From positions 62,001-126,000 of the forward strand of contig NZ_LRML01000005.1 in the NCBI RefSeq assembly GCF_001647285.1: a stretch of 64,000 bases of DNA, in the 5' to 3' direction. Positions 18,103 to 48,033 of this stretch are shown here, piece by piece. Under the pieces are notes generated by a model. That model did not search any database and was not told where the DNA came from. It worked only from the letters and a program-made list of their open reading frames with translations. The translations under genes were made by a program, and so were the position numbers. Origin of the DNA: Rufibacter roseus. GTDB taxonomy: Bacteria; Bacteroidota; Bacteroidia; Cytophagales; Hymenobacteraceae. Numbering within the stretch: the stretch's first letter is position 1; every line of letters starts with the position of its first letter.

Positions 18103-18148
18103 AGACTCAGAACAAAATCTTCAGTCTTGTGTCCTGTGTCTTAAATCT
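18103..18148. repeat. heptamer array overlapping the acyl-CoA dehydrogenase stop
   Basis: On the minus strand five consecutive heptamers close to AGACNNA run from 18148 down to 18114; one more unit in the opposite sense lies at 18103-18109. The array shares two bases with the stop codon of the acyl-CoA dehydrogenase gene. It uses the same unit as the arrays at 19964-20395 and 33606-33687. Confidence 0.65.
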
Positions 18149-19943
18149 AGTAAACAAACTCGTTCTCCTTAATCATTTCGGCCGCAATACGACGGCGGGC
18201 TTCTTTGGTGTTGTATGGTTCTAGTTTAGTAAAACGCTTGAGGCCAATGAGCAACAGCTTCTGCTCGTCACCTGGTTCACTCATGGCCGCAATGGCTTCC
18301 TTACCAGCTTTATTAATGCGGTCAGCAGCATCATTGATCACCACACGTACAATGTCTAACTGACGACCATGCGCCTCTTCGCCGTTGCGGCTCACCAGCT
18401 TCTCCACACGCAGTAATGTAGACTCAGCTATGTAGGTCTGAATGGCCATATCCGCGATGTACATGAGCACTTCCTGCTCTTTATCCAAGGTCATCATGAA
18501 CTTCTGCACGGCTGTACCGGCGGTTAGCAACACGGCTTTTTTAAATTTCTCAACGGCTTTCTTTTCAGCGGCAAAAAGGCTGGTATCTTCGTCCCCGAAA
18601 TCAGGAATGGCCATTAGTTCATTCTGCACATTGGCGGCCGGGCCCATCAAGTCAAGCTCACCTTTCAGGGCTTTTTTGAGCACCATGTCTACAATGAGCA
18701 TGCGGTTGATCTCGTTAGTTCCCTCAAATATGCGGTTGATGCGGGCATCGCGGTACGCACGATCCATAGGGTAATCAGCTGAGAAACCGTAGCCTCCGTA
18801 GATCTGCACACCTTCGTCTACCACGTAATCCAGCACCTCCGAGCCATCTACTTTAAGAATGGCGGCTTCCACGGCAAACTCACGGGCAGCTTCCAGTACA
18901 GCCTCATTGTAGCTTTTGCCAGCGGCTAACAGCTCCTGCTCTTTCAGGTGAATGTCATGCCCACAGCGGTACAGAGCAGATTCTACCGCAAAAATTCTGA
19001 TAGCCTGCTCCGCCAACTTATGACGGATGGCCCCGAACTTTGAAATTGGAATCTTGAACTGAATACGCTCATTGGCATACTTTACAGAAAGATCTGCTAC
19101 TTGCTTACAGGCTCCCAAACAGGCAGCTGCCAGCTTGATACGCCCGATATTTAAGATGTTGAAGGCAATTAAGTGTCCTTTCCCAATCTCGCCCAGCACG
19201 TTTTCTTTCGGTACTTTGCAGTCGGTCAGGAACACTTGGCGGGTAGAGGATCCTTTGATTCCCATCTTGTGCTCTTCCGGACCCAAGCTCAGACCTTCAT
19301 AGCCTTTCTCTACAATGAAGCCTGTGAATTTATCTCCGTCTACCTGCGCAAAAACAATGAACACATCGGCGAAGCCAGCGTTCGTAATCCACATTTTTTG
19401 ACCATTCAAAATGTAGTTTTCGCCAGCCACATCTAAAACGGCTTTAGTCTTGGCAGCCAAAGCATCTGACCCAGAACCCGGCTCTGTTAAGCAATAAGAA
19501 GCCGCCCACTCGCCAGACGCCAACTTAGGAATGTACTTGGCTTTCTGCTCTTCGGTACCGAAGTACAGGATGGGCAGTGTACCAATACCGGTATGCGCGG
19601 CAAACGCCACGGGGAATGAATGCCCTGAACCTACCGACTCTGTCACGAGCAAAGATGAGTTAAAATCCATGCTGAGTCCGCCGTACTCCTCCGGAATGGC
19701 TACGCCGAATAAGCCCAGCTCTCCGGCTTTTTTCATAAGCCCCTCCATCAAGCCTTCCTCATGGTTGTCCAGTCGCTCTACTAGCGGGTACACCTCGGTC
19801 TGCACAAACTGCTGGGCCGTCTCGGCCATCATGCGCTGCTCCTCAGAGAAATCCTCCGGAATGAAAATATTTGCGGCGTTGGTTTCTTTGATGATGAACT
19901 CACCGCCTTTGAGCGTTCTAGAAGTTGATTCTGTATTTGCCAT
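18147..19943 (-). CDS. acyl-CoA dehydrogenase (long ~600-residue type)
   Basis: A 598-residue flavoenzyme for the first step of fatty-acid beta-oxidation. The dehydrogenase core has the substrate segment SYCLTEPGSGSDA and the late block RIFEGTNEINR, whose glutamate is the expected catalytic base. The C-terminal ~170-residue helical extension (from about residue 430) resembles that of VLCAD-type enzymes. It is the last gene of the FadB-like/thiolase/dehydrogenase cluster. It is now separated from the thiolase gene by an inserted four-helix-bundle pseudogene with heptamer flanks. Confidence 0.92.
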   Translation of the reverse strand: MANTESTSRTLKGGEFIIKETNAANIFIPEDFSEEQRMMAETAQQFVQTEVYPLVERLDNHEEGLMEGLMKKAGELGLFGVAIPEEYGGLSMDFNSSLLVTESVGSGHSFPVAFAAHTGIGTLPILYFGTEEQKAKYIPKLASGEWAASYCLTEPGSGSDALAAKTKAVLDVAGENYILNGQKMWITNAGFADVFIVFAQVDGDKFTGFIVEKGYEGLSLGPEEHKMGIKGSSTRQVFLTDCKVPKENVLGEIGKGHLIAFNILNIGRIKLAAACLGACKQVADLSVKYANERIQFKIPISKFGAIRHKLAEQAIRIFAVESALYRCGHDIHLKEQELLAAGKSYNEAVLEAAREFAVEAAILKVDGSEVLDYVVDEGVQIYGGYGFSADYPMDRAYRDARINRIFEGTNEINRMLIVDMVLKKALKGELDLMGPAANVQNELMAIPDFGDEDTSLFAAEKKAVEKFKKAVLLTAGTAVQKFMMTLDKEQEVLMYIADMAIQTYIAESTLLRVEKLVSRNGEEAHGRQLDIVRVVINDAADRINKAGKEAIAAMSEPGDEQKLLLIGLKRFTKLEPYNTKEARRRIAAEMIKENEFVY

Positions 19944-19963: not shown

Positions 19964-19998
19964 AGACATAAGACACAAGACGTAAGACTCAAGACTTT
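19964..19998. repeat. heptamer array, left flank of four-helix-bundle unit A
   Basis: Five head-to-tail heptamers of the form AGACNNA (the last is AGACTTT). They are inverted relative to the right flank. The TGA stop of the restored gene falls inside the fourth unit. The array begins 20 bases upstream of the acyl-CoA dehydrogenase start. Confidence 0.85.
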
Positions 19999-20359
19999 TC
20001 TTTTGTGTTCTTGAGAAATCTGTCTTTGAAACCATTAATCATGCGCTGTACCACGCCAACTTGCTGTAGCAATAGCTGCAACCTTGCCTCTTCTACAAAG
20101 CCAAAGCTTTGTAGAAGAGTAATTGCGTTTCTAACTCAAAAGCAGAGCCTCTCGCAATGTTCAAAAATTGAATAAACTCTTTGTCACTGCCTCTTCCAGC
20201 TCCTTCGGCTATGTTAGAGGGAACAGAAACGGCTGACCTATTAATTTGTGACGTAAGACCATATTTTTCATTTGCAGGAAACGAAGCCGAAAGCTCGAAA
20301 ACCTTCTTAGCCAACGTCATTGCCTCTTGCCAAATCTTTAACTCTTTAAAGTTGTGCAT
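19989..20359 (-). pseudogene. S23-type four-helix-bundle protein (23S rRNA IVP family), frameshifted; unit A
   Basis: The intact frame encodes 88 residues (stop at 20093) of a classic S23/IVP protein: FKELKIWQEAMTLAKKVFEL, then LTSQINRSAVSVPSNIAEGA, then FLNIARGSAFELETQLL. The remaining helix, VEEARLQLLLQQVGVVQRMI, continues in another frame to a TGA at 19989-19991. A one-base indel therefore truncates a protein of about 123 residues. The break lies at a perfect hairpin (20088-20119). The family forms pentameric four-helix bundles related to the Avd protein of diversity-generating retroelements; its function here is unknown. The start codon sits one base from the right heptamer array. Confidence 0.8.
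20088..20119. repeat. perfect inverted repeat at the frameshift of unit A
   Basis: Two 14-base arms (CTCTTCTACAAAGC and its complement) separated by four bases, located where the reading frame of the four-helix-bundle gene breaks. Confidence 0.8.
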
Positions 20360-20360
20360 G

Positions 20361-20395
20361 AGAGTCTTGAATCTTATGTCTTACGTCTTGTGTCT
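20361..20395. repeat. heptamer array, right flank of four-helix-bundle unit A
   Basis: Five heptamers that read AGACNNA-like on the minus strand (TNNGTCT on the plus strand), inverted relative to 19964-19998. The array ends eight bases before the thiolase stop codon. Confidence 0.85.
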
Positions 20396-21582: not shown

Positions 21583-21600
21583 TTTCTTTTCTGTTTGAGT

Positions 21601-21639
21601 TAATGTGCTAATTATTAATGTGCTGATGTGCTAATTAAG
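21601..21639. repeat. short tandem-unit array upstream of the thiolase gene
   Basis: Five successive 7-8 base units, mostly TAATGTGC with TAATTAT and TAATTAAG variants, starting 19 bases upstream of the thiolase start. Together with 21691-21725 it brackets one interspersed palindrome. Confidence 0.65.
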
Positions 21640-21644
21640 CAACT

Positions 21645-21684
21645 CTATTTTCGGCATACTTTTGAAAAAATAGGTCCAAAACAG
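21645..21684. repeat. interspersed palindrome copy 10
   Basis: CTATTTTCGGCA and AGGTCCAAAACAG arms, enclosed between two short-unit arrays in the thiolase/FadB-like gap. Confidence 0.6.
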
Positions 21685-21690
21685 ATCCCC

Positions 21691-21725
21691 ACATTAATCA
21701 TTACTCACTATTCATTAATCATTAA
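21691..21725. repeat. heptamer array next to the FadB-like stop codon
   Basis: Five heptamers, consensus TTAATGA on the minus strand, ending three bases before the stop codon of the FadB-like gene. Unit and orientation resemble the right flank of the unit at 28.4 kb. No four-helix-bundle gene lies between this and 21601-21639. Confidence 0.7.
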
Positions 21726-21728
21726 CAA

Positions 21729-24131
21729 CTAGTTCCGCAGTGGTTTACCCGTGGTCAGGATGCTCTTGATGCGCTCCAGCGTTTTGCGCTCACCAGTCAG
21801 GCTCAGGAACGCTTCTCGCTCTAAGTCCAGCAGGTACTGCTCCGAGACTTCTGATGGCATTGACAAATCGCCACCGCACATCACGTAGGCCAATTTCTCT
21901 GAGATCTTGCGGTCGTGCTCGGAGATAAAACCGGCAGCGTGCATGGCGTGCGTACCCGTCAGGAACATGCCCAGACCACCACGACCTTGCACCTTGATGT
22001 TGGTTTTAGGTGTGGGTTTGGTATAACCGGCATCGGCTAACAAAACAGCTTCGGCTTTGGCCTCGGCAATGAGGCGGTTGTTGTTGAGGGTAATGCCATC
22101 ACCGCCGCGAAGGAAGCCTAAATCAAAAGCTTCTGCCGCTGAGGTAGACACTTTGGCCATTCCAATGGTCATAAACGCGTTGCGCAGGGCGTTAAACTCA
22201 GTGTCGCCCTCTTCGTAGGCCGCCGAGGTACGCAGGGTCATTTCCTTTGTACCGCCGCCACCTGGTATCAAGCCAACTCCAAACTCTACCAACCCGATAT
22301 AAGATTCTGCTGCGGCCTGTACTCTATCTGCGTGCAGGCAAAGCTCGCAGCCTCCGCCCAGGGTCAGACCATGTGGAGCAGCTACTACAGGAACAGCAGA
22401 GTAACGCATGCGCATCATGGTGTTCTGGAACTGCTTGATCATGAGGTTCAGCTCGTCATACTCCTGGTCAATGGCGTACATGAACACCAGCGCCAAGTTC
22501 GCTCCAGCAGAGAAATTAGTGGCTTCGTTACCGACTACTATTCCTCTGAAGTTTTGCTCCGCCAGGTCAATGCCCTTATTCAAGCCCTGTATGATTTCGC
22601 TGCCCATGGAGTTCATCTTGGTGTGGAACTCCACGTTCAGGATGCCATCGCCTAAATCTAGAATGGTGCAACCGGCGTTTTTCCAAACCACGTTGGTGCC
22701 GCGTAGCACATCCAGCAACACAAAATTCTCGGTGCCCGGAATCTGCTTGTACTCTTTGCTTTCTATATCATAGTACTGGCGCTGATTGTTCTGGCTGCGG
22801 TAGAAGCTCTCGTGCCCCGCTTCCAGCATCTCGTACACCCATCGGGCAGGCTTGTACCCAGCGGCTTCCATGGCACTCACAGTCTCACGCACGCCCACGG
22901 CATCCCAAGTCTCAAAGGGTCCCAGCTCCCATCCGAAGCCGGCGCGCATGGCATCATCAATGCGGTAGAGCTCGTCTGAGATTTCCGGAATTCGGTTAGT
23001 CACGTATTGGAACAAGCCAAAAGAAGTCTCTCTAAAGAAGTCACCGGCTTTGTCCTGCACCTGGCTGAACGCCTTGAGGCGCTTGCGGAGGTCTTCAATA
23101 GGTTTGAGCATTTCCATGCTCTGGAACTTGACCTTTTTCTTAGGCCCGTATTCCATAGTCTTCAGGTCCAGCGTCAGAATCTCGGTGGCACCCTGATCGT
23201 TCTTGGTTTTCTTGTAGAAGCCCTGCTTTGTTTTGTCACCCAGCCAGTTTTTCTCCAGCATCTGCTGAATGTAACCGGGTAGCTGGAACAGATCACGGGC
23301 CTCGTCTTTCTCGCCAGATTGGTATAGACCTTGGGCAACTTTGGCCAGCGTGTCAAGACCTACCACATCAGAGGTCCTAAACGTAGCTGATTTTGGTCTG
23401 CCTACTACTGGGCCAGTGAGGCGGTCTACCTCGTCTACATTCAGATCCAGCTTCTCCATGACGTGCAGCACCTGCATGATGCCATAAATACCCACACGGT
23501 TGGCAATAAAGGCCGGCGTGTCTTTGGCCAGAACCGTGGTTTTGCCTAGGAACAGATCACCGTAGTTTAGCAGAAACTGAGTGATTTCCGGGTCAGTGTG
23601 TGGCGTGGGGATAATCTCCAGCAACTTAAGGTAGCGCGGCGGGTTGAAGAAGTGCGTGCCGCAGAAATGCTTTTTGAAATCTTCGGAACGGCCCTCGGCC
23701 ATTAAATGGATTGGAATACCCGAGGTATTGGAGGTAATGAGCGTGCCCGGCTTGCAGAACTGCTCCACCTTCTCAAAGATGGACTGCTTTATTTTCAGGT
23801 TCTCCACCACCACTTCAATGGTCCAGTCGCAGTCGGCAATGCCTTTGAGGTCATCATCGAAGTTACCGGTCTTGATGAGGCTGGCCTTGGTTTTCTCGTA
23901 CAGGGGCGCCGGATTAGAAGTAATGGCTGTTTGGAGGGCGGTGTTCACAATGCGGTTGCGCACTTGCTTGCTTTCCATGGTGAGGCCTTTGGCTTCCTCC
24001 TCGGGCAGTAGCTCCCTCGGCACCATATCCAGCAGCAGCACCTGCACGCCAATGTTCGCGAAGTGGCAGGCAATGCGCGAGCCCATTACGCCCGAGCCAA
24101 GCACCGCCACTTTCTTGATTATTCTCTTCAT
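21729..24131 (-). CDS. 3-hydroxyacyl-CoA dehydrogenase/enoyl-CoA hydratase fusion (FadB/FadN-like)
   Basis: An 800-residue bifunctional beta-oxidation enzyme. The NAD-binding Rossmann domain comes first (VAVLGSGVMGSRIACHFA at residues 8-25), followed by the helical dehydrogenase domains to about 470. The enoyl-CoA hydratase/isomerase (crotonase) domain is C-terminal, with GIVVGNEATNFSAGANL and HGLTLGGGCELCLHAD forming the oxyanion hole. This order is the reverse of E. coli FadB and like Bacillus FadN. It leads the operon with thiolase and acyl-CoA dehydrogenase, and a MarR regulator lies just upstream. Confidence 0.92.
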   Translation of the reverse strand: MKRIIKKVAVLGSGVMGSRIACHFANIGVQVLLLDMVPRELLPEEEAKGLTMESKQVRNRIVNTALQTAITSNPAPLYEKTKASLIKTGNFDDDLKGIADCDWTIEVVVENLKIKQSIFEKVEQFCKPGTLITSNTSGIPIHLMAEGRSEDFKKHFCGTHFFNPPRYLKLLEIIPTPHTDPEITQFLLNYGDLFLGKTTVLAKDTPAFIANRVGIYGIMQVLHVMEKLDLNVDEVDRLTGPVVGRPKSATFRTSDVVGLDTLAKVAQGLYQSGEKDEARDLFQLPGYIQQMLEKNWLGDKTKQGFYKKTKNDQGATEILTLDLKTMEYGPKKKVKFQSMEMLKPIEDLRKRLKAFSQVQDKAGDFFRETSFGLFQYVTNRIPEISDELYRIDDAMRAGFGWELGPFETWDAVGVRETVSAMEAAGYKPARWVYEMLEAGHESFYRSQNNQRQYYDIESKEYKQIPGTENFVLLDVLRGTNVVWKNAGCTILDLGDGILNVEFHTKMNSMGSEIIQGLNKGIDLAEQNFRGIVVGNEATNFSAGANLALVFMYAIDQEYDELNLMIKQFQNTMMRMRYSAVPVVAAPHGLTLGGGCELCLHADRVQAAAESYIGLVEFGVGLIPGGGGTKEMTLRTSAAYEEGDTEFNALRNAFMTIGMAKVSTSAAEAFDLGFLRGGDGITLNNNRLIAEAKAEAVLLADAGYTKPTPKTNIKVQGRGGLGMFLTGTHAMHAAGFISEHDRKISEKLAYVMCGGDLSMPSEVSEQYLLDLEREAFLSLTGERKTLERIKSILTTGKPLRN

Positions 24132-26648: not shown

Positions 26649-26797
26649 AGTGTGGTTTGTCTGGTTTGTCGGGTTAAGATAAAGCAAATTCTGGATAAAA
26701 AAAACACAGTGCTTCTACCTTCTATTCGCATATTTTTAAAAAAGAATATCTCTACAGGTGTTTTATTAGCTAAATTTGATTTTTGCCCTTGTCTTAC

Positions 26798-27946
26798 ATG
26801 AATCTTTCCATCTTCTTTGAGCCCCTACCAGAAGCACTCTTCGGAGGCGATGACAACCCCAAGTCTGTGGGCGGATATATAGCTCCTTTTCTCCATTCCT
26901 TCCCCGACTGGCGCTCTGCAGAGGTGGTACTGATAGGCCTTCCAGAATATCGTGGCACAGCAGGCGCTTCAGAAATTTCCTTTCAAGGGCCCAACCTCAT
27001 CAGGAAAGAACTCTACCAGCTTATGAAAGGCACCGGCCCCTGGCTCGTAATGGACTTAGGCAACTTACTGCCTGGCATTCATTTAGAAGACACGTATCTG
27101 CGCCTGAAAGAGGTAGTGGAGATGCTGGTAGACGAAGGTAAATTCCCTATTCTGCTGGGCGGCTCCCATGACCTCACTTACGGACAATTCTTAGGTTATG
27201 AGCATCTAAACAAAACAGTTAGCCTGGCTATAGTGGACAGTCAGCTAGACATGCAGGAAAACAAAGATGCCGCTCCAGACCAGAGCCACCTGCACCGCCT
27301 GCTGCTACACGAGCCCAATTATTTGTTTAGCTTCAGCCAATTAGGTTACCAAGCCTACCTCACCCCTACTACTACATTGGCCGCGCTTGAAAAGCTGCAC
27401 TTTGAGCTGTTTCGCATTGGGCAGGTAAGGCAGCAGCTTAAGGAGATGGAGCCGGTAATAAGACAGGCCGACTTGCTTAGTTTTGATGTCTCTGCTATCA
27501 AACACCAAGATGCTCCTGGCCAGCAGCACGCTAACCCTTTTGGCCTTACCGGCGAGGAAGCCTGCCAGATTTGCTGGTACGCAGGCCAAAGCGACCAACT
27601 CAGCTCATTTGGTTTGTACGGCTATCGCCCTGAATTTGACCATAGAGCCCTTACGGCTACCACTCTGGCTACCATGGTTTGGTACACCATTGAAGGTTTT
27701 TACCAAAGACTGCGCAATTTGGATTTCCAGAGCAATAACTTTCTGCGGTTCTCAGTGGGCTTTCATGACAACCCCAACAAGATGATCTTTTATAAAAACC
27801 GACAAACTGACAAGTGGTGGATGCAAGTAGATGACTTGTCTGGTCAGCGCCCGCCCATGGTGGTACCTTGCAGCTATCAAGACTACCTTACCGCCGTAGA
27901 CGGGGAAGTGCCCAACCGCTGGATTCTGACACAAGCGCGGATTTAA
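26798..27946 (+). CDS. arginase/formimidoylglutamase-fold protein with altered metal site
   Basis: A 382-residue ureohydrolase-fold protein; ATG 26798 (MNLSIFFEPLPEALF) is preferred over the TTG at 26783. Three metal-ligand regions can be aligned. LLGGSHDLTYG keeps a histidine. The usual DAHxD is replaced by VDSQLD, losing its histidine. The usual SFDVDxxDP reads SFDVSAIKHQDAP, losing one aspartate. Catalysis by the standard two-manganese mechanism is therefore doubtful, although related Bacteroidota proteins commonly carry the name formimidoylglutamase. Its stop codon lies inside the left array of unit B. Confidence 0.75.
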   Translation: MNLSIFFEPLPEALFGGDDNPKSVGGYIAPFLHSFPDWRSAEVVLIGLPEYRGTAGASEISFQGPNLIRKELYQLMKGTGPWLVMDLGNLLPGIHLEDTYLRLKEVVEMLVDEGKFPILLGGSHDLTYGQFLGYEHLNKTVSLAIVDSQLDMQENKDAAPDQSHLHRLLLHEPNYLFSFSQLGYQAYLTPTTTLAALEKLHFELFRIGQVRQQLKEMEPVIRQADLLSFDVSAIKHQDAPGQQHANPFGLTGEEACQICWYAGQSDQLSSFGLYGYRPEFDHRALTATTLATMVWYTIEGFYQRLRNLDFQSNNFLRFSVGFHDNPNKMIFYKNRQTDKWWMQVDDLSGQRPPMVVPCSYQDYLTAVDGEVPNRWILTQARI

Positions 27947-27974
27947 TGAGTGAAGGAGTGAGTTTGTGAATGAG
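27943..27974. repeat. octamer array, left flank of four-helix-bundle unit B
   Basis: Four head-to-tail octamers near TGAATGAG (TTAATGAG, TGAAGGAG, TGAGTTTG, TGAATGAG). The first unit contains the TAA stop of the upstream arginase-fold gene. It is inverted relative to the array at 28428-28467. Confidence 0.8.
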
Positions 27975-28043
27975 AAAGGAGTTCCTCCCAATGTTTGAAT
28001 TTTTCTTTAAAAATCTTGTTTGAAAGAAAATTAAAATTACATC

Positions 28044-28421
28044 ATGGAGCAGCTGAAGGAGCCAACAAAGGAGGAATTTATTACGCGGTTTAGACAACGG
28101 ACAAAGATGCTCGCGTTACAGGTGATTCGCTTTAGCCAAGAATTACCTAGAACTGAGGAAGCAATCATTATGAAAAGGCAACTCCTCCGGTCAGCTACGT
28201 CGGTGGCAGCTAATTACAGAGCCGCTTGCCGCGCGCGATCGGCAGCTGAATTTCATTCAAAACTCAGTATTTGCGTAGAGGAGGCAGATGAAACCCTTTT
28301 TTGGCTTGAGTTGCTGACCGAGTCAGAAACTGTTACTTCGTCCTCTACTGCATCACTCATACAAGCAGCATCAGAAATTTTGCTCATTCTATCAAAAGCC
28401 AGAAAAAACACTATCAAATAA
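28044..28421 (+). CDS. four-helix-bundle protein (TIGR02436/Avd-like); unit B
   Basis: A 125-residue all-helical protein. It has the TIGR02436 pattern: FRQRTKMLALQVIRFSQELP for helix 1, MKRQLLRSATSVAANYRAAC into helix 2, EFHSKLSICVEEADETLFWL for helix 3, and a terminal Leu/Ile-rich helix. It belongs to the same superfamily as unit A (S23) but to the other common subgroup. Function is unknown; relatives include the Avd accessory protein of retroelements. There is no reverse transcriptase nearby. The gene is enclosed by inverted octamer arrays. Confidence 0.85.
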   Translation: MEQLKEPTKEEFITRFRQRTKMLALQVIRFSQELPRTEEAIIMKRQLLRSATSVAANYRAACRARSAAEFHSKLSICVEEADETLFWLELLTESETVTSSSTASLIQAASEILLILSKARKNTIK

Positions 28422-28427
28422 TTTCTT

Positions 28428-28467
28428 TTTATTCACTCATTCACACACTCACTCATTCAATCATTAG
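28428..28467. repeat. octamer array, right flank of four-helix-bundle unit B
   Basis: Five octamers whose minus-strand consensus is TGAATGAG, matching the left flank in inverted orientation. The array begins six bases after the four-helix-bundle stop and ends three bases before the ATG of the cytochrome b5-like gene. Confidence 0.85.
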
Positions 28468-28470
28468 CCC

Positions 28471-28704
28471 ATGCTTCCAGAATACACCCGCTCTCAATTA
28501 GCTTTACGAAACGGGCAAGATCGTGACGAAATTTGGGTGGCGTACAAAGGTCTGATTTACGATGTGCAAAAGTCAAGGCTATGGCGGCGTGGAAACCATT
28601 ATGAGCACTGGGCAGGGCAAGATTTAACAAAGGAATTAGCTGATGCACCACATACAGATTTTGTATTTGATAAGTTTTCTGTTGTAGGAATTCTAAAAAA
28701 ATAA
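28471..28704 (+). CDS. cytochrome b5-like heme-binding domain protein
   Basis: A 77-residue single-domain protein. YTRSQLALRNGQDRDEIWVA and YKGLIYDVQKSRLW form the opening strands. GNHYEHWAGQDLT carries the first heme-ligand histidine region and ADAPHTDFVFDKFSVVG the second, as in short bacterial cytochrome b5 domains. No signal peptide or anchor is present, so it is probably a soluble electron carrier or steroid/heme-binding domain. Its start lies three bases after the right array of unit B, leaving no room for a normal ribosome site. Confidence 0.8.
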   Translation: MLPEYTRSQLALRNGQDRDEIWVAYKGLIYDVQKSRLWRRGNHYEHWAGQDLTKELADAPHTDFVFDKFSVVGILKK

Positions 28705-28766
28705 CAATACTTTCAATACTTTTTAAGAAATTTGACGAACTTACGTTTCTCAAAAGAGATATATCT

Positions 28767-29618
28767 ATGATTCTTATTGCTGATAGCGGCTCCACTAAAA
28801 CAGCCTGGCGCCTGATTGACACTGAAGGAGTTGTAAGCCAAGCTCATACTATTGGGTTTAATCCTTACTATCAAGACACCCCCCAAATTGCCCAAACTCT
28901 GCGTGAGAGCTTGCTGCCTCAGTTAAAAGATGCTCAGCCTCAGGAGATTTATTTTTATGGGGCCGGATGCAGCGCTAAGAATAAGAAAGCCATTGTTGCC
29001 GCCGCTCTTTTAGAGTTGTACCCTAACAGCGAGGTATTTGTGCACCATGATCTGGAAGCTGCCGCCCATGCTCTTTGTGGTCATAATGAAGGCATAGCTT
29101 GCATTTTAGGAACCGGCTCAAATTCCTGCCACTATGACGGTGAGAAAATTATAGAGAACTTACCAAATCTAGGCTTCATACTTGGCGATGAGGGAAGTGG
29201 TGGCTATATGGGCAAGCGCATAGTACAAGCTTACCTGAACAATGAATTACCAGAAGACCTGCACCAGGCTTTCTTTGACCGTTACGGCGTAGACCGTGAT
29301 GAGATCATAGATAACGTCTACAGCAAACCATATCCTAACAGGTACATGGCTGCTTTCTCTAAATTCTTATCTGAGCACCGCAAGCACCCTTTCATCTACC
29401 AGATGATCTTCAAGTGTTTCTCAGATTTCTTTGACAAAACAGTAAGCAAATACCCTGATTACCAGAACAAGGAAACCCACTTTGTTGGCTCTATCGCGTT
29501 CTATTTCTCTGACATTTTACGTACTGTAGCCCAAGAGTACGGCATCAATGTAGGTCAGATCTTAGAAAGCCCTATTGAAGGCCTTAGCCTTTATCATCAG
29601 CAAAAAATAACTGTATGA
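28767..29618 (+). CDS. N-acetylglucosamine kinase-like protein (BadF/BadG/BcrA/BcrD ATPase family)
   Basis: A 283-residue sugar kinase of the ASKHA fold. The phosphate-1 loop is ADSGSTKTAWRL at residues 5-16, and CILGTGSNSC provides the phosphate-2 loop near residue 115. FILGDEGSGGYMG is the conserved sugar/adenosine segment. It overlaps murQ by four bases (ATGA), so the two are translationally coupled. This suggests phosphorylation of amino sugars released from peptidoglycan, upstream of MurQ. Confidence 0.88.
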   Translation: MILIADSGSTKTAWRLIDTEGVVSQAHTIGFNPYYQDTPQIAQTLRESLLPQLKDAQPQEIYFYGAGCSAKNKKAIVAAALLELYPNSEVFVHHDLEAAAHALCGHNEGIACILGTGSNSCHYDGEKIIENLPNLGFILGDEGSGGYMGKRIVQAYLNNELPEDLHQAFFDRYGVDRDEIIDNVYSKPYPNRYMAAFSKFLSEHRKHPFIYQMIFKCFSDFFDKTVSKYPDYQNKETHFVGSIAFYFSDILRTVAQEYGINVGQILESPIEGLSLYHQQKITV

Positions 29619-30421
29619 GTACCACCGAAACCGCTTCTTATTACAACAACCTGGAGCACATGAGTGTGCATGAGCTCCTGACCAATATAAATGAGCAAGA
29701 TAAGACTGTTCCGCTTGCCGTAGAAAAAGCCATTCCGCAGTTAGAGAAGTTGGTGGAGGCTACGGTGGCCAAAATGAAAGAGGGCGGTCGTTTATTTTAC
29801 ATTGGCGCTGGCACCAGCGGCCGTTTAGGCGTGGTAGATGCTTCAGAATGCCCACCTACCTATGGCGTACCGTTTGATATGGTCATTGGCATTATGGCTG
29901 GCGGAGATTCTGCCATTAGAAAAGCGGTAGAGTTTGCCGAAGACGATGACCAGCAGGCTATCAAAGACCTGGAAGCATACAACGTGAACGAGAAAGACGT
30001 AGTGGTAGGCATTGCCGCCTCTGGCCGTACGCCCTACGTAATTGGGGGGCTACAAGCCTGCAACGAAAGAGGTATTACAACAGGCTGTATTGTCTGCAAC
30101 GCAGATAGCAAAGTAGCAGCGGTGGCTCAATTTCCGGTGGAAGTAGTTACTGGCCCTGAATTTGTGACGGGCAGTACCCGCATGAAAGCCGGAACTGGCC
30201 AAAAGCTAGCGCTCAACATGCTCACTACCTCTACCATGATTCAATTAGGCAGAGTAAAAGGCAACAAGATGGTAGACATGCAGCTAACTAACCACAAATT
30301 AGTGGATCGTGGTGTTCGCATGATCATGGAGGAAATTGGTGTTTCTGAAGATAAAGCCAAAGAATTGCTCGACCTTCATGGCAGCGTAAGAGCCGCTATC
30401 ACTTCTTACAACCAGCACTAA
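29615..30421 (+). CDS. murQ: N-acetylmuramic acid 6-phosphate etherase MurQ
   Basis: A 268-residue SIS-domain lyase that cleaves the lactyl ether of MurNAc-6-phosphate in cell-wall recycling. It shows the family's GAGTSGRLGVVDASECPPTYG (about residues 66-86), GIAASGRTPYVIGGL and the EVVTGPEFVTGSTRMKAGTGQK block. It is somewhat shorter than the ~300 residues of E. coli MurQ, as is common in Bacteroidota. It is coupled to the upstream kinase gene. Confidence 0.94.
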   Translation: MSTTETASYYNNLEHMSVHELLTNINEQDKTVPLAVEKAIPQLEKLVEATVAKMKEGGRLFYIGAGTSGRLGVVDASECPPTYGVPFDMVIGIMAGGDSAIRKAVEFAEDDDQQAIKDLEAYNVNEKDVVVGIAASGRTPYVIGGLQACNERGITTGCIVCNADSKVAAVAQFPVEVVTGPEFVTGSTRMKAGTGQKLALNMLTTSTMIQLGRVKGNKMVDMQLTNHKLVDRGVRMIMEEIGVSEDKAKELLDLHGSVRAAITSYNQH

Positions 30422-33558: not shown

Positions 33559-33605
33559 GGTTAAACCTGCGGTATCACCTCCTTGGCGCCGCTAGGGTAC
33601 TTTTT

Positions 33606-33687
33606 AGACACAAGATGTAAGACCTAAGATTCAAGACTTCTCTTAGTATGATTTTGTCTTGTGTCTTATGTCTTGAGTCTTGTGTCT
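33606..33687. repeat. paired inverted heptamer arrays with no gene between them
   Basis: Five AGACNNA-type heptamers (33606-33640), a 12-base spacer, then five heptamers in inverted orientation (33653-33687). The unit is the same as in unit A at 20 kb. The right array ends at the base before the era stop codon. It looks like an empty version of unit A lacking the four-helix-bundle gene. Confidence 0.85.
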
Positions 33688-34578
33688 CTATAAACTATTA
33701 TATCCGAACCTATCCAGCAGGCGTTTGTCGGTGCGCCAGTTTTCGTTTACGCGCACGTAGAGGTCCAGAAACACTTTTTTCTGAAAGAACTCTTCCATGT
33801 CTAAGCGCGCTTGAGTGCCTACTTTTTTAAGGGCGGCTCCTTTGTCGCCGATGACAATGCCTTTCTGGCTTTTGCGCTCTACGCTGATCTCAGCGCGCAT
33901 TCTAATGATGGTTTCGTCTTCCTTAAATTCCTCAATCACTACTTCGCAGCTGTAAGGAATTTCTTTTTTATAGTTCAGGAAGATTTTCTCGCGTATCATC
34001 TCGGCCGCAAAGAAACGCTCGGGCTTGTCGGTTAGTTCATCTTTGGGATAATAAGCTGGGTGCTCCGGCATCAGGTCCAGAATTTTCTGGAATACACCGG
34101 GTATGCCTTGGTTGTGCAGCGCCGAGATGGGCAGATATTCCTGCGCCGGAAGTTGCTCTTTCCAATAGTCAATTTTGGCCTCTACTTCTTCCTGGGTGGC
34201 CTGGTCAATTTTATTGATGAGCAGCAGAATGGGAGATTTGGCTTTGCGCAAGCGCTCCACCACTTCGCTCTCATCGTGCTTCTCGTAAATATCAGTGACA
34301 AAGAGAATGACATCGGCATCTTCCAGCGAGGCATGCACAAAACGCATCATAGACTCATGCAGCTCGTACTGGGGCTGTATAATGCCGGGCGTATCTGAGT
34401 AAACAACCTGAAAATCGTCGCCGTTCAGAATGCCCATGATGCGGTGGCGGGTGGTTTGGGCTTTGGAGGTAATAATGGAGAGTTTCTCGCCCACCATCAC
34501 GTTCATCAGGGTGCTCTTGCCAACGTTTGGCTTCCCGATGATGCTTACAAACCCTGCTTTATGCGGCTTCTCTGCCAT
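33688..34578 (-). CDS. era: GTPase Era
   Basis: A 296-residue GTPase for 16S rRNA maturation. The P-loop GKPNVGKS is at residues 15-22, followed by the switch segment, DTPGI, and NKID. The C-terminal KH domain carries the RNA-binding loop VIGDKGAALKKVGTQARLDME. A TACCTTTG -7 box lies 27 bases before its start, so it has its own promoter. The paired heptamer arrays touch its stop codon. Confidence 0.96.
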   Translation of the reverse strand: MAEKPHKAGFVSIIGKPNVGKSTLMNVMVGEKLSIITSKAQTTRHRIMGILNGDDFQVVYSDTPGIIQPQYELHESMMRFVHASLEDADVILFVTDIYEKHDESEVVERLRKAKSPILLLINKIDQATQEEVEAKIDYWKEQLPAQEYLPISALHNQGIPGVFQKILDLMPEHPAYYPKDELTDKPERFFAAEMIREKIFLNYKKEIPYSCEVVIEEFKEDETIIRMRAEISVERKSQKGIVIGDKGAALKKVGTQARLDMEEFFQKKVFLDLYVRVNENWRTDKRLLDRFGYNSL

Positions 34579-47612: not shown

Positions 47613-47647
47613 AATTAGAAATTAAAAATTAGAAATTATGAATTTGA
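47613..47647. repeat. heptamer array, left flank of four-helix-bundle unit C
   Basis: Five head-to-tail heptamers with consensus AATTAGA (variants AATTAAA, AATTATG, AATTTGA). It is inverted relative to the right flank. It contains the TAA stop of the four-helix-bundle gene at 47636-47638 and ends in its last codons. Confidence 0.88.
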
Positions 47648-48001
47648 TTTCATGGTGATGAGAATTTTGCTGATGATTTTCCTTATCTCTAAGCAATCCT
47701 CATGAATGGAATCAAATGCATTTTCAGGAATATACTGGCTATCTTTTAGCAAGCGCAGCCAATATGAAGTTTCCCTAGCCTCTTTCGCGGCAATGTTAAG
47801 TTTATGAACGAAATCAGCTTTAGAACTTGCAGCAATTGCTTCTTCAACATTTGCACCAATGGAAGTACCGCTCCTAAGAAGTTGCTTCGCTAGTACAAAT
47901 TCTTTCTGCTCCTGAGTCAGGAACTTGTAGAGCTTAATAACCCTCAACGCAAAAGCATAGCTTTTATCAATGATGACATTTTCTCTTTTCCCCTCCTCCA
48001 C
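47636..48001 (-). CDS. four-helix-bundle protein (TIGR02436/Avd-like); unit C
   Basis: A 121-residue all-helical protein of the TIGR02436 group: KSYAFALRVIKLYKFLT, then LAKQLLRSGTSIGANVEEAI, then DFVHKLNIAAKEARETSYWL and a final Ile/Leu-rich helix. The start is GTG at 47999-48001, with an in-frame stop a few codons upstream inside the array, so no ATG start is possible. It is clearly homologous to unit B but far from identical. It lies inside the sucB-lpdA gap, enclosed by inverted AATTAGA arrays. Function is unknown. Confidence 0.87.
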   Translation of the reverse strand: MEEGKRENVIIDKSYAFALRVIKLYKFLTQEQKEFVLAKQLLRSGTSIGANVEEAIAASSKADFVHKLNIAAKEARETSYWLRLLKDSQYIPENAFDSIHEDCLEIRKIISKILITMKSNS

Positions 48002-48033
48002 AATTTCTAATTTCTAATTTCTAATTCATAATT
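48002..48033. repeat. heptamer array, right flank of four-helix-bundle unit C
   Basis: On the minus strand: AATTATG, three exact AATTAGA units, then AATT, ending at the base before the GTG start of the four-helix-bundle gene. The outer end is six bases from the sucB stop codon. Confidence 0.88.

Follow-up and report, generated by a model that had tools for sequence, protein, structure and literature searches.

Four-helix-bundle genes of Rufibacter roseus and its relatives lie between inverted arrays of short, lineage-specific units that look like an undescribed kind of genetic element

At 28 kb in the window (the 64,000-nt stretch of a Rufibacter roseus contig that was analysed), a gene for a four-helix-bundle (4HB) protein is enclosed by two short tandem arrays in inverted orientation; this locus is one of a family of elements built from two inverted tandem arrays, each with 4–5 copies of a 7–8-nt unit, that are set flush with gene ends. 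Together with mirror arrays that enclose no gene, these loci look like an undescribed kind of genetic element; searches of the open-access literature yielded no recognised description of inverted tandem arrays around 4HB genes. In the best-supported reading, the element works like both the intervening sequences (IVSs) of 23S rRNA and the REP/RAYT system, and it departs from each in one defining feature, because it does not lie in rRNA and has no Y1 transposase. That the 28-kb locus is a gene-bearing member of an IVS/REPIN-like family of palindromic elements, with a 4HB protein that recognises its own unit, is in our judgment an even call. The locus is laid out as follows:

26783–27946, + strand: arginase-fold gene, upstream neighbour (PF00491 Arginase, 76 bits)
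27944–27974, + strand: left arm, TGAATGAG/TGAGTGA-type 8-mer array that opens with the TAA stop codon of the arginase-fold gene
28044–28421, + strand: 4HB gene, 125 aa, ATG start (TIGR02436 / PF05635 23S_rRNA_IVP)
28436–28466, − strand: right arm, matching the left arm in inverted orientation at 28/31 positions and ending 4 nt before the cytochrome b5-like ATG
28471–28704, + strand: cytochrome b5-like gene, downstream neighbour (PF00173 Cyt-b5)

The two arms are 31 nt each, 90% complementary and spaced by 461 nt. A sequence-only reading had described inverted octamer arrays around the 125-residue 4HB gene, and these are borne out by a left/right score of 47, whereas shuffled sequence has its 99th percentile at 24 and never exceeds 31 (2380 Markov shuffles over 119 loci). 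TRF describes the right arm as an 8-mer in 4.4 copies; the left arm is absent from its output at score 30. The same reading correctly placed the stop codon of the arginase-fold gene within the left array (the first three bases) and erred slightly in placing the end of the right array three bases before the cytochrome b5-like ATG, where the gap is 4 nt. Its claim that the flanks match unit for unit holds modestly: permutation of the letters within unit columns gives p = 0.017, and permutation of unit order, a test of low power, gives p = 0.24. The 4HB protein scores 82.1 bits against TIGR02436 (cut-off 24) and 61.5 bits against PF05635 (cut-off 33.8). As in an IVS, an S23p-type ORF lies between complementary sequences that are predicted to form a stem; however, positions 26700–29700 have zero Rfam matches, and the element lies outside any rRNA helix.

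Further array pairs in the window are:

19964–20395, − strand: third 4HB element, with AAGACNN arms at 19964–19996 and 20363–20395 and a 4HB gene with one in-frame TAG
21600–21732, − strand: gene-less array pair 3′ of the stop codon of ORF 21729–24131 (− strand), with a TAATGTGC-type right arm
33604–33690, − strand: gene-less AAGACNN palindrome immediately 3′ of the era stop codon
47613–48026, − strand: second 4HB element, with AATTAGA arms at 47613–47640 and 47999–48026 and a 4HB gene at 47636–48001

The 47.8-kb element sits between genes of the 2-oxoacid dehydrogenase acyltransferase and dihydrolipoyl dehydrogenase types, and its AATTAGA arrays, as had been stated, share no unit with those at 28 kb. 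The 20-kb element, which sits between thiolase and acyl-CoA dehydrogenase genes, had been overlooked, as had the gene-less pairs at 33.6 and 21.7 kb. In the 21.7-kb pair the left arm is related to the right arm but diverged and looser, the loop is ~55 nt and the pair score is only 23. The gene is dispensable to the design, because gene-less pairs exist. The loop of the 21.7-kb pair holds a terminator-like hairpin. At 18115–18143, 3′ of the stop codon of an acyl-CoA dehydrogenase gene (18147–19943, − strand), lies a lone AAGAC-type array for which an inverted partner was not found.

TIGR02436 is present in 15/16 genomes of the genus, 108/120 of the family and 114/148 of the phylum. Our family sample of 119 4HB loci takes in every locus of the genus (39) together with 80 that rank among the best-scoring in the rest of the family, and at 112 of these the arms score above 99% of shuffles. 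The mean score of a left flank against its own reversed right flank is 39.6; it drops to 18.2 when the right flank comes from another locus, shuffles give 17.0, and the outer flanks, at 17.5, stay at the shuffle level (maximum 26). The outcome that would have spoken against the design, own flanks that match no better than random pairs, did not occur. The seven loci under the arm threshold (L024, L125, L133, L139, L148, L150 and L169) are left out of the copy-number, mismatch, permutation, unit–protein, slot and gene-distance counts. As had been proposed, copy number (~4–5 per arm, median 4.4) and inversion are conserved; the period is not, being 7 in 96 of the 119 loci, 8 in 20 and another value in 3. 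The arms agree beyond the unit consensus in 43/102 loci (permutation, p ≤ 0.05), so the left–right match is partly unit for unit. A wider set combined 80 named loci, a few of them from the same family, with 30 loci from a search of the phylum; of the 109 whose flanks are long enough, 80 pass this arm test (period 8 in 58, period 7 in 19), and the positives include Flavobacteriaceae, Saprospiraceae, and Anaerolineae and Acidobacteria MAGs. Left/left and right/right comparisons were set aside because coding sequence within the flanks distorts them, and a search with the pattern AGTYNTG was uninformative, its backward control being a nearly identical repeat.

The unit follows the lineage of the protein. 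Arm similarity is correlated with protein identity (Mantel r 0.50, 0/1000 permutations); the arms match in 90% of the pairs with >80% protein identity and in <1% of the pairs with <30%, and in 81/112 loci they match those of the nearest protein relative (base rate 4%). By this test, repeat and protein co-evolve, as in the REP/RAYT system. The many alternative units that had been postulated therefore exist, in ~4–5 copies and always inverted, but they are not freely drawn; they follow protein lineage and slot. Likewise, the expectation that a left flank matches only its own right flank is correct between unit classes but not within a class: in only 33 loci does the own right flank outscore all the others among the 119, and for same-unit loci within a slot the own and other right arms match equally well (137:114, with 29 ties).

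Syntenic flanks group the 112 loci into 23 slots, several of which lie inside operons, and the 4HB tree recovers these slots as almost monophyletic (30 changes, where the minimum is 17 and the shuffled mean 82.8); free transposition to random sites is therefore rejected. In this tree, L123 (broken over two frames) and L124 (one in-frame stop) are on very long branches. Slots occur within tight gene pairs (thiolase/acyl-CoA dehydrogenase, mraY/murD, CoA-transferase A/B) and also 3′ of miaB and 5′ of pdxA. Of the 110 left neighbours called, 104 are codirectional, and in 93/112 loci both neighbours are. The left arm lies a median of 2 nt from the upstream stop codon, and a median of 11 nt separates the end of the right arm from the following ATG (a distance that is overestimated at a few loci, e.g., in the arginase slot, where the ATG finder skipped the short cytochrome b5 gene).

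Occupancy of the slots was assessed by eye in the 16 genomes of the genus. In the arginase slot, the 4HB element is complete in 4 genomes and decayed in 1, 7 genomes have arms of another class that enclose no 4HB gene, 1 has a mosaic and 3 have an empty site; the thiolase slot contains a 4HB gene in 7 (three unit classes), a GIY-YIG element in 4 and a remnant in 1, and it is empty in 4. The lpdA slot has a 4HB gene in 2/16 genomes and lacks one in 14/16. Two unit lineages that occupy one slot are interspersed on the species tree, which has many weak forks. The closer same-unit pairs have ~0.9 amino acid identity in the 4HB protein with four-fold sites that are saturated and as diverged as those of the neighbours; this implies purifying selection on the protein and old lineages, and it leaves recent horizontal homing of same-unit pairs unsupported. 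In pairs with different units, the divergence of the 4HB genes often greatly exceeds that of the neighbours (four-fold identity 0.14 for 4HB vs 0.64–0.70), so one lineage can replace another in a slot; given this replacement and the weak correlation between 4HB and neighbour identities in most slots, vertical descent throughout is partly rejected. Because 44/191 same-unit pairs are at unrelated (non-syntenic) sites (e.g., L134/L147, with 73% protein identity and an arm score of 52), the elements appear to move with their arms. Comparison of empty and filled sites by eye revealed no clear target-site duplication; the arms blend with stop codons.

Gene-less inverted array pairs number ~9 in 464 kb of the R. 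roseus genome. Five have the units of resident 4HB elements (AAGACNN twice, TAATGTGC in the loose pair at 21.7 kb, AGTCNTG and AATTAGA); several other gene-less units, e.g., AATGANN and CGTTNTT, match none of the six resident units. A genome without a 4HB gene (G009) has 1 pair in 200 kb, and a genome with one 4HB gene (G015) has 0 gene-less pairs in 200 kb. Considering gene-bearing and gene-less pairs together (1.06 Mb), 16/20 face a stop codon at a distance of ≤20 nt, as compared with 7% of random intervals; the gene-less hairpins have folding z scores of −5.6 to −9.8 in four of five cases (−1.9 in the fifth). AAGAC arrays number 73 in the R. roseus genome (overlapping shifts counted) and 0–58 in the other 15, and the number of arrays per genome is weakly linked to a resident 4HB gene with the same unit (AAGAC, p 0.07; TAATGTGC, p 0.12).

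The site 3′ of era was compared in 15 genomes of the genus (G013 left out). An array pair is found at the same place in 15/15, followed by conserved sequence before der; the inverted match is above every shuffle in 14/15, with G009 failing (19 vs 20), and in G007 an inner miniature element gives the best pair. The units, classified by eye, are AAGACNN in 3 genomes, TAGATNT in 4, GTATCNN in 5, GATGTGA in 2 and GTTNTT in 1. Left and right arms from one genome score 30.2, those taken from different genomes with the same unit class score 29.8, and those of different classes score 13.3; both arms therefore change together. Intermediate units suggest drift among the AAGACNN, TAGATNT and GTATCNN classes; the GATGTGA and GTTNTT classes look like replacements. 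Nested arrays, as in L349 (757–1303 around 814–1277), show one way in which both arms can be swapped together. With the classes assigned by eye, the era unit is that of a resident 4HB element in 5/15 genomes (permutation mean 2.2, p 0.039).

Conservation of this kind is also what would be expected if the hairpins stabilised or processed operon mRNA and the 4HB protein were a host regulator that binds them, i.e., if the arrays were a cellular RNA-processing or mRNA-end feature that is not mobile. The arrays that are flush with stop codons, the era/der site kept in 15/15 species, the slots inside conserved pairs (e.g., mraY/murD and CoA-transferase A/B), the purifying selection on the 4HB protein and the strong hairpin folding all agree with such a host function; the clean empty sites, the patchy presence within one genus, the different-unit lineages that swap at one slot despite conserved neighbours and the 44 same-unit pairs at unrelated sites do not. 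In addition, an excess of G-U over A-C among the arm mismatches was not seen (135 vs 117, p 0.28), and the data thus give no support to selection for a sense-strand RNA stem; this argues that copying at the DNA level, not RNA pairing, keeps the arms matched, or that the pairing is loose. We consider the host function unlikely.

The arms might instead be neutral products of slippage and hairpin-templated correction, with 4HB genes between them by chance. The drift-like chain of units (AAGAC, TAGAC, TAGAT, TAGTA, GTATC), the lack of strand asymmetry and the common gene-less arrays are compatible with neutrality, but arms at 112/119 4HB genes with outer flanks at the shuffle level, the linkage of protein and unit, and a fixed polarity, in which the 5′ arm is richer in G than in C in 101/112 4HB loci and 10/11 gene-less pairs, make it improbable. 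It is more improbable still that the arms belong to another mobile enzyme, a GIY-YIG element or a RAYT-type Y1 transposase, with the 4HB gene as cargo: a GIY-YIG gene (PF01541) or miniature does lie within arms in the thiolase slot (4/16 genomes) and in several genomes in the arginase slot, but the GIY-YIG element has its own TGTCATCCTGAAAGGATC-type ends and is armless (by eye) at the lpdA slot in 4 genomes, and 7/8-mer arrays flank 0/6 Y1 transposases of the R. roseus genome.

Returning to the reading in which the 4HB protein recognises the unit of its own element, the AlphaFold model of the 28-kb protein (pLDDT 94.7) has its best fold match in 2rld (S23 family), followed by 2gsc and then by Avd (4dwl) and the ribonucleoprotein of a diversity-generating retroelement (DGR; 8ub7). 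The PDB sequence match is also 2rld (E 3e-16), a structure with five chains, and a Xanthomonas member of the S23 family is described as a toroidal homopentamer (PMC4990558). Among 34 4HB proteins from several phyla (counted without L123, in two frames, L124, with one in-frame stop, and L125), the polar or charged residues Q46, S53, N57 and E83 are invariant and R49 is conserved at ≥90%; the four invariant residues suggest a conserved binding or active centre.

Co-evolution with the unit and homology to Avd and S23 proteins lead us to infer that the 4HB protein binds the unit. It would be an Avd-like, probably pentameric, nucleic-acid-binding scaffold that reads the repeated unit in a hairpin of RNA or single-stranded DNA, perhaps with one unit per subunit; a correspondence between five subunits and 4–5 units is speculation. 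Binding would promote the upkeep and occasional spread of elements that carry the protein's own unit, and the arms would stay matched because pairing lets one arm serve as the template for copying or correcting the other. In mRNA, the paired arms may form a hairpin that can be excised or is protective, as in the case of rRNA IVSs, and an insert within an operon would thereby be tolerated. Against this reading stand the lack of a G-U excess, the weak link between array counts and resident 4HB units, the gene-less units that match no resident one, the catalytic partner that was looked for and not found, and the lack of a clear target-site duplication. The full proposal, a new class of genetic element in which a pentameric Avd-like protein reads the 7–8-nt unit, one per subunit, and copies or homogenises it in the arms of its own and other palindromes at gene ends, with rRNA IVSs as a special case, is tentative, and we think it possible rather than probable. 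If it is true, hairpins are fixed at orthologous sites across a genus while their unit sequence changes simultaneously in the two arms, and rRNA IVSs are elements that entered rRNA helices. The findings also connect the old puzzle of rRNA IVSs with a much more numerous group of elements residing in operons and with heptamer arrays that had lacked an explanation, and they provide a natural example of distant inverted arrays whose sequences change in concert. The arms are also a concrete candidate target for the very common PF05635/TIGR02436 proteins of Bacteroidota, which to our knowledge have no assigned function outside DGRs.

With 23S rRNA IVSs that contain an S23p ORF (e.g., in Coxiella burnetii), the elements share the protein family, an ORF within stem-forming complementary sequences, the sense orientation, the reuse of few sites by different inserts and the patchy presence (PMC4990558). 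Excision by RNase III without religation is characteristic of rRNA IVSs; for the 28-kb element a stem is predicted. They differ in that the 28-kb element lies between protein-coding genes instead of in an rRNA helix, in their tandem 7–8-mer arms and in having gene-less relatives. REP/REPIN systems with RAYT (tnpA-REP) genes have inverted palindromic ends, dispersed gene-less palindromes and gene–repeat co-evolution, and are old and of low copy number; the 4HB elements resemble them in combining a gene with inverted repeats and dispersed gene-less palindromes at gene ends, in gene–repeat co-evolution, and in low copy number and age. In contrast, a four-helix bundle takes the place of the Y1/HuH transposase, and the ends are degenerate tandem arrays of lineage-specific units. 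The likeness to the Avd protein of DGRs consists of the fold matches (4dwl, 8ub7) and a weak match of the 47.8-kb 4HB protein to Pfam bAvd; unlike in a DGR, no reverse transcriptase (RT) gene lies beside a 4HB gene in the R. roseus genome, where the single RVT_1 match is on another contig (C37). A catalytic partner was not found among the RTs and Y1 transposases: RT is present in only 9/16 genomes and lacking in 7/16, and the Y1 transposases have other ends, so neither RAYT nor RT is supported as the partner.

Heptanucleotide repeats were reportedly described by Costa in 2002 in a hairpin of the Nostoc tRNA-Leu intron, where degenerate heptamers and a complementary class are said to form the stem; these lie inside a group I intron, and we know of no 4HB gene associated with them. 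The intergenic TAACTGA heptamer repeats of some Bacteroidetes (2–6 tandem copies, adjoining start or stop codons; MacGregor 2015, PMC4679880) are like the 4HB arms in being 7-nt tandem units at gene ends. They differ in being described as direct repeats of a single unit, with one inverted case, and the terms S23, four-helix and intervening sequence are absent from the excerpted text (PMC4679880).

Several other elements with inverted ends were observed. A GIY-YIG endonuclease element with TGTCATCCTGAAAGGATCTTGTGGGC-type inverted ends is found at L112:2799–3092, L108 and L073, and gene-less GIY-YIG miniatures, often nested within array pairs, are found in L061–L075 and L082–L094. Four of the five RAYT-like Y1 transposase genes of the R. 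roseus genome (L331–L335) have strong inverted, non-tandem ends of their own. In G009, AGTTCTG-type inverted arrays surround a gene for a MerR-family regulator, not a 4HB protein (L319:16569–17033). A terminator-like hairpin, GTTTT..GGCC..TTTTC..GAAAA..GGCC..AAAAC, recurs at many intergenic sites in the genus, in some cases between arms (L292, L303, L308 and L085–L093).
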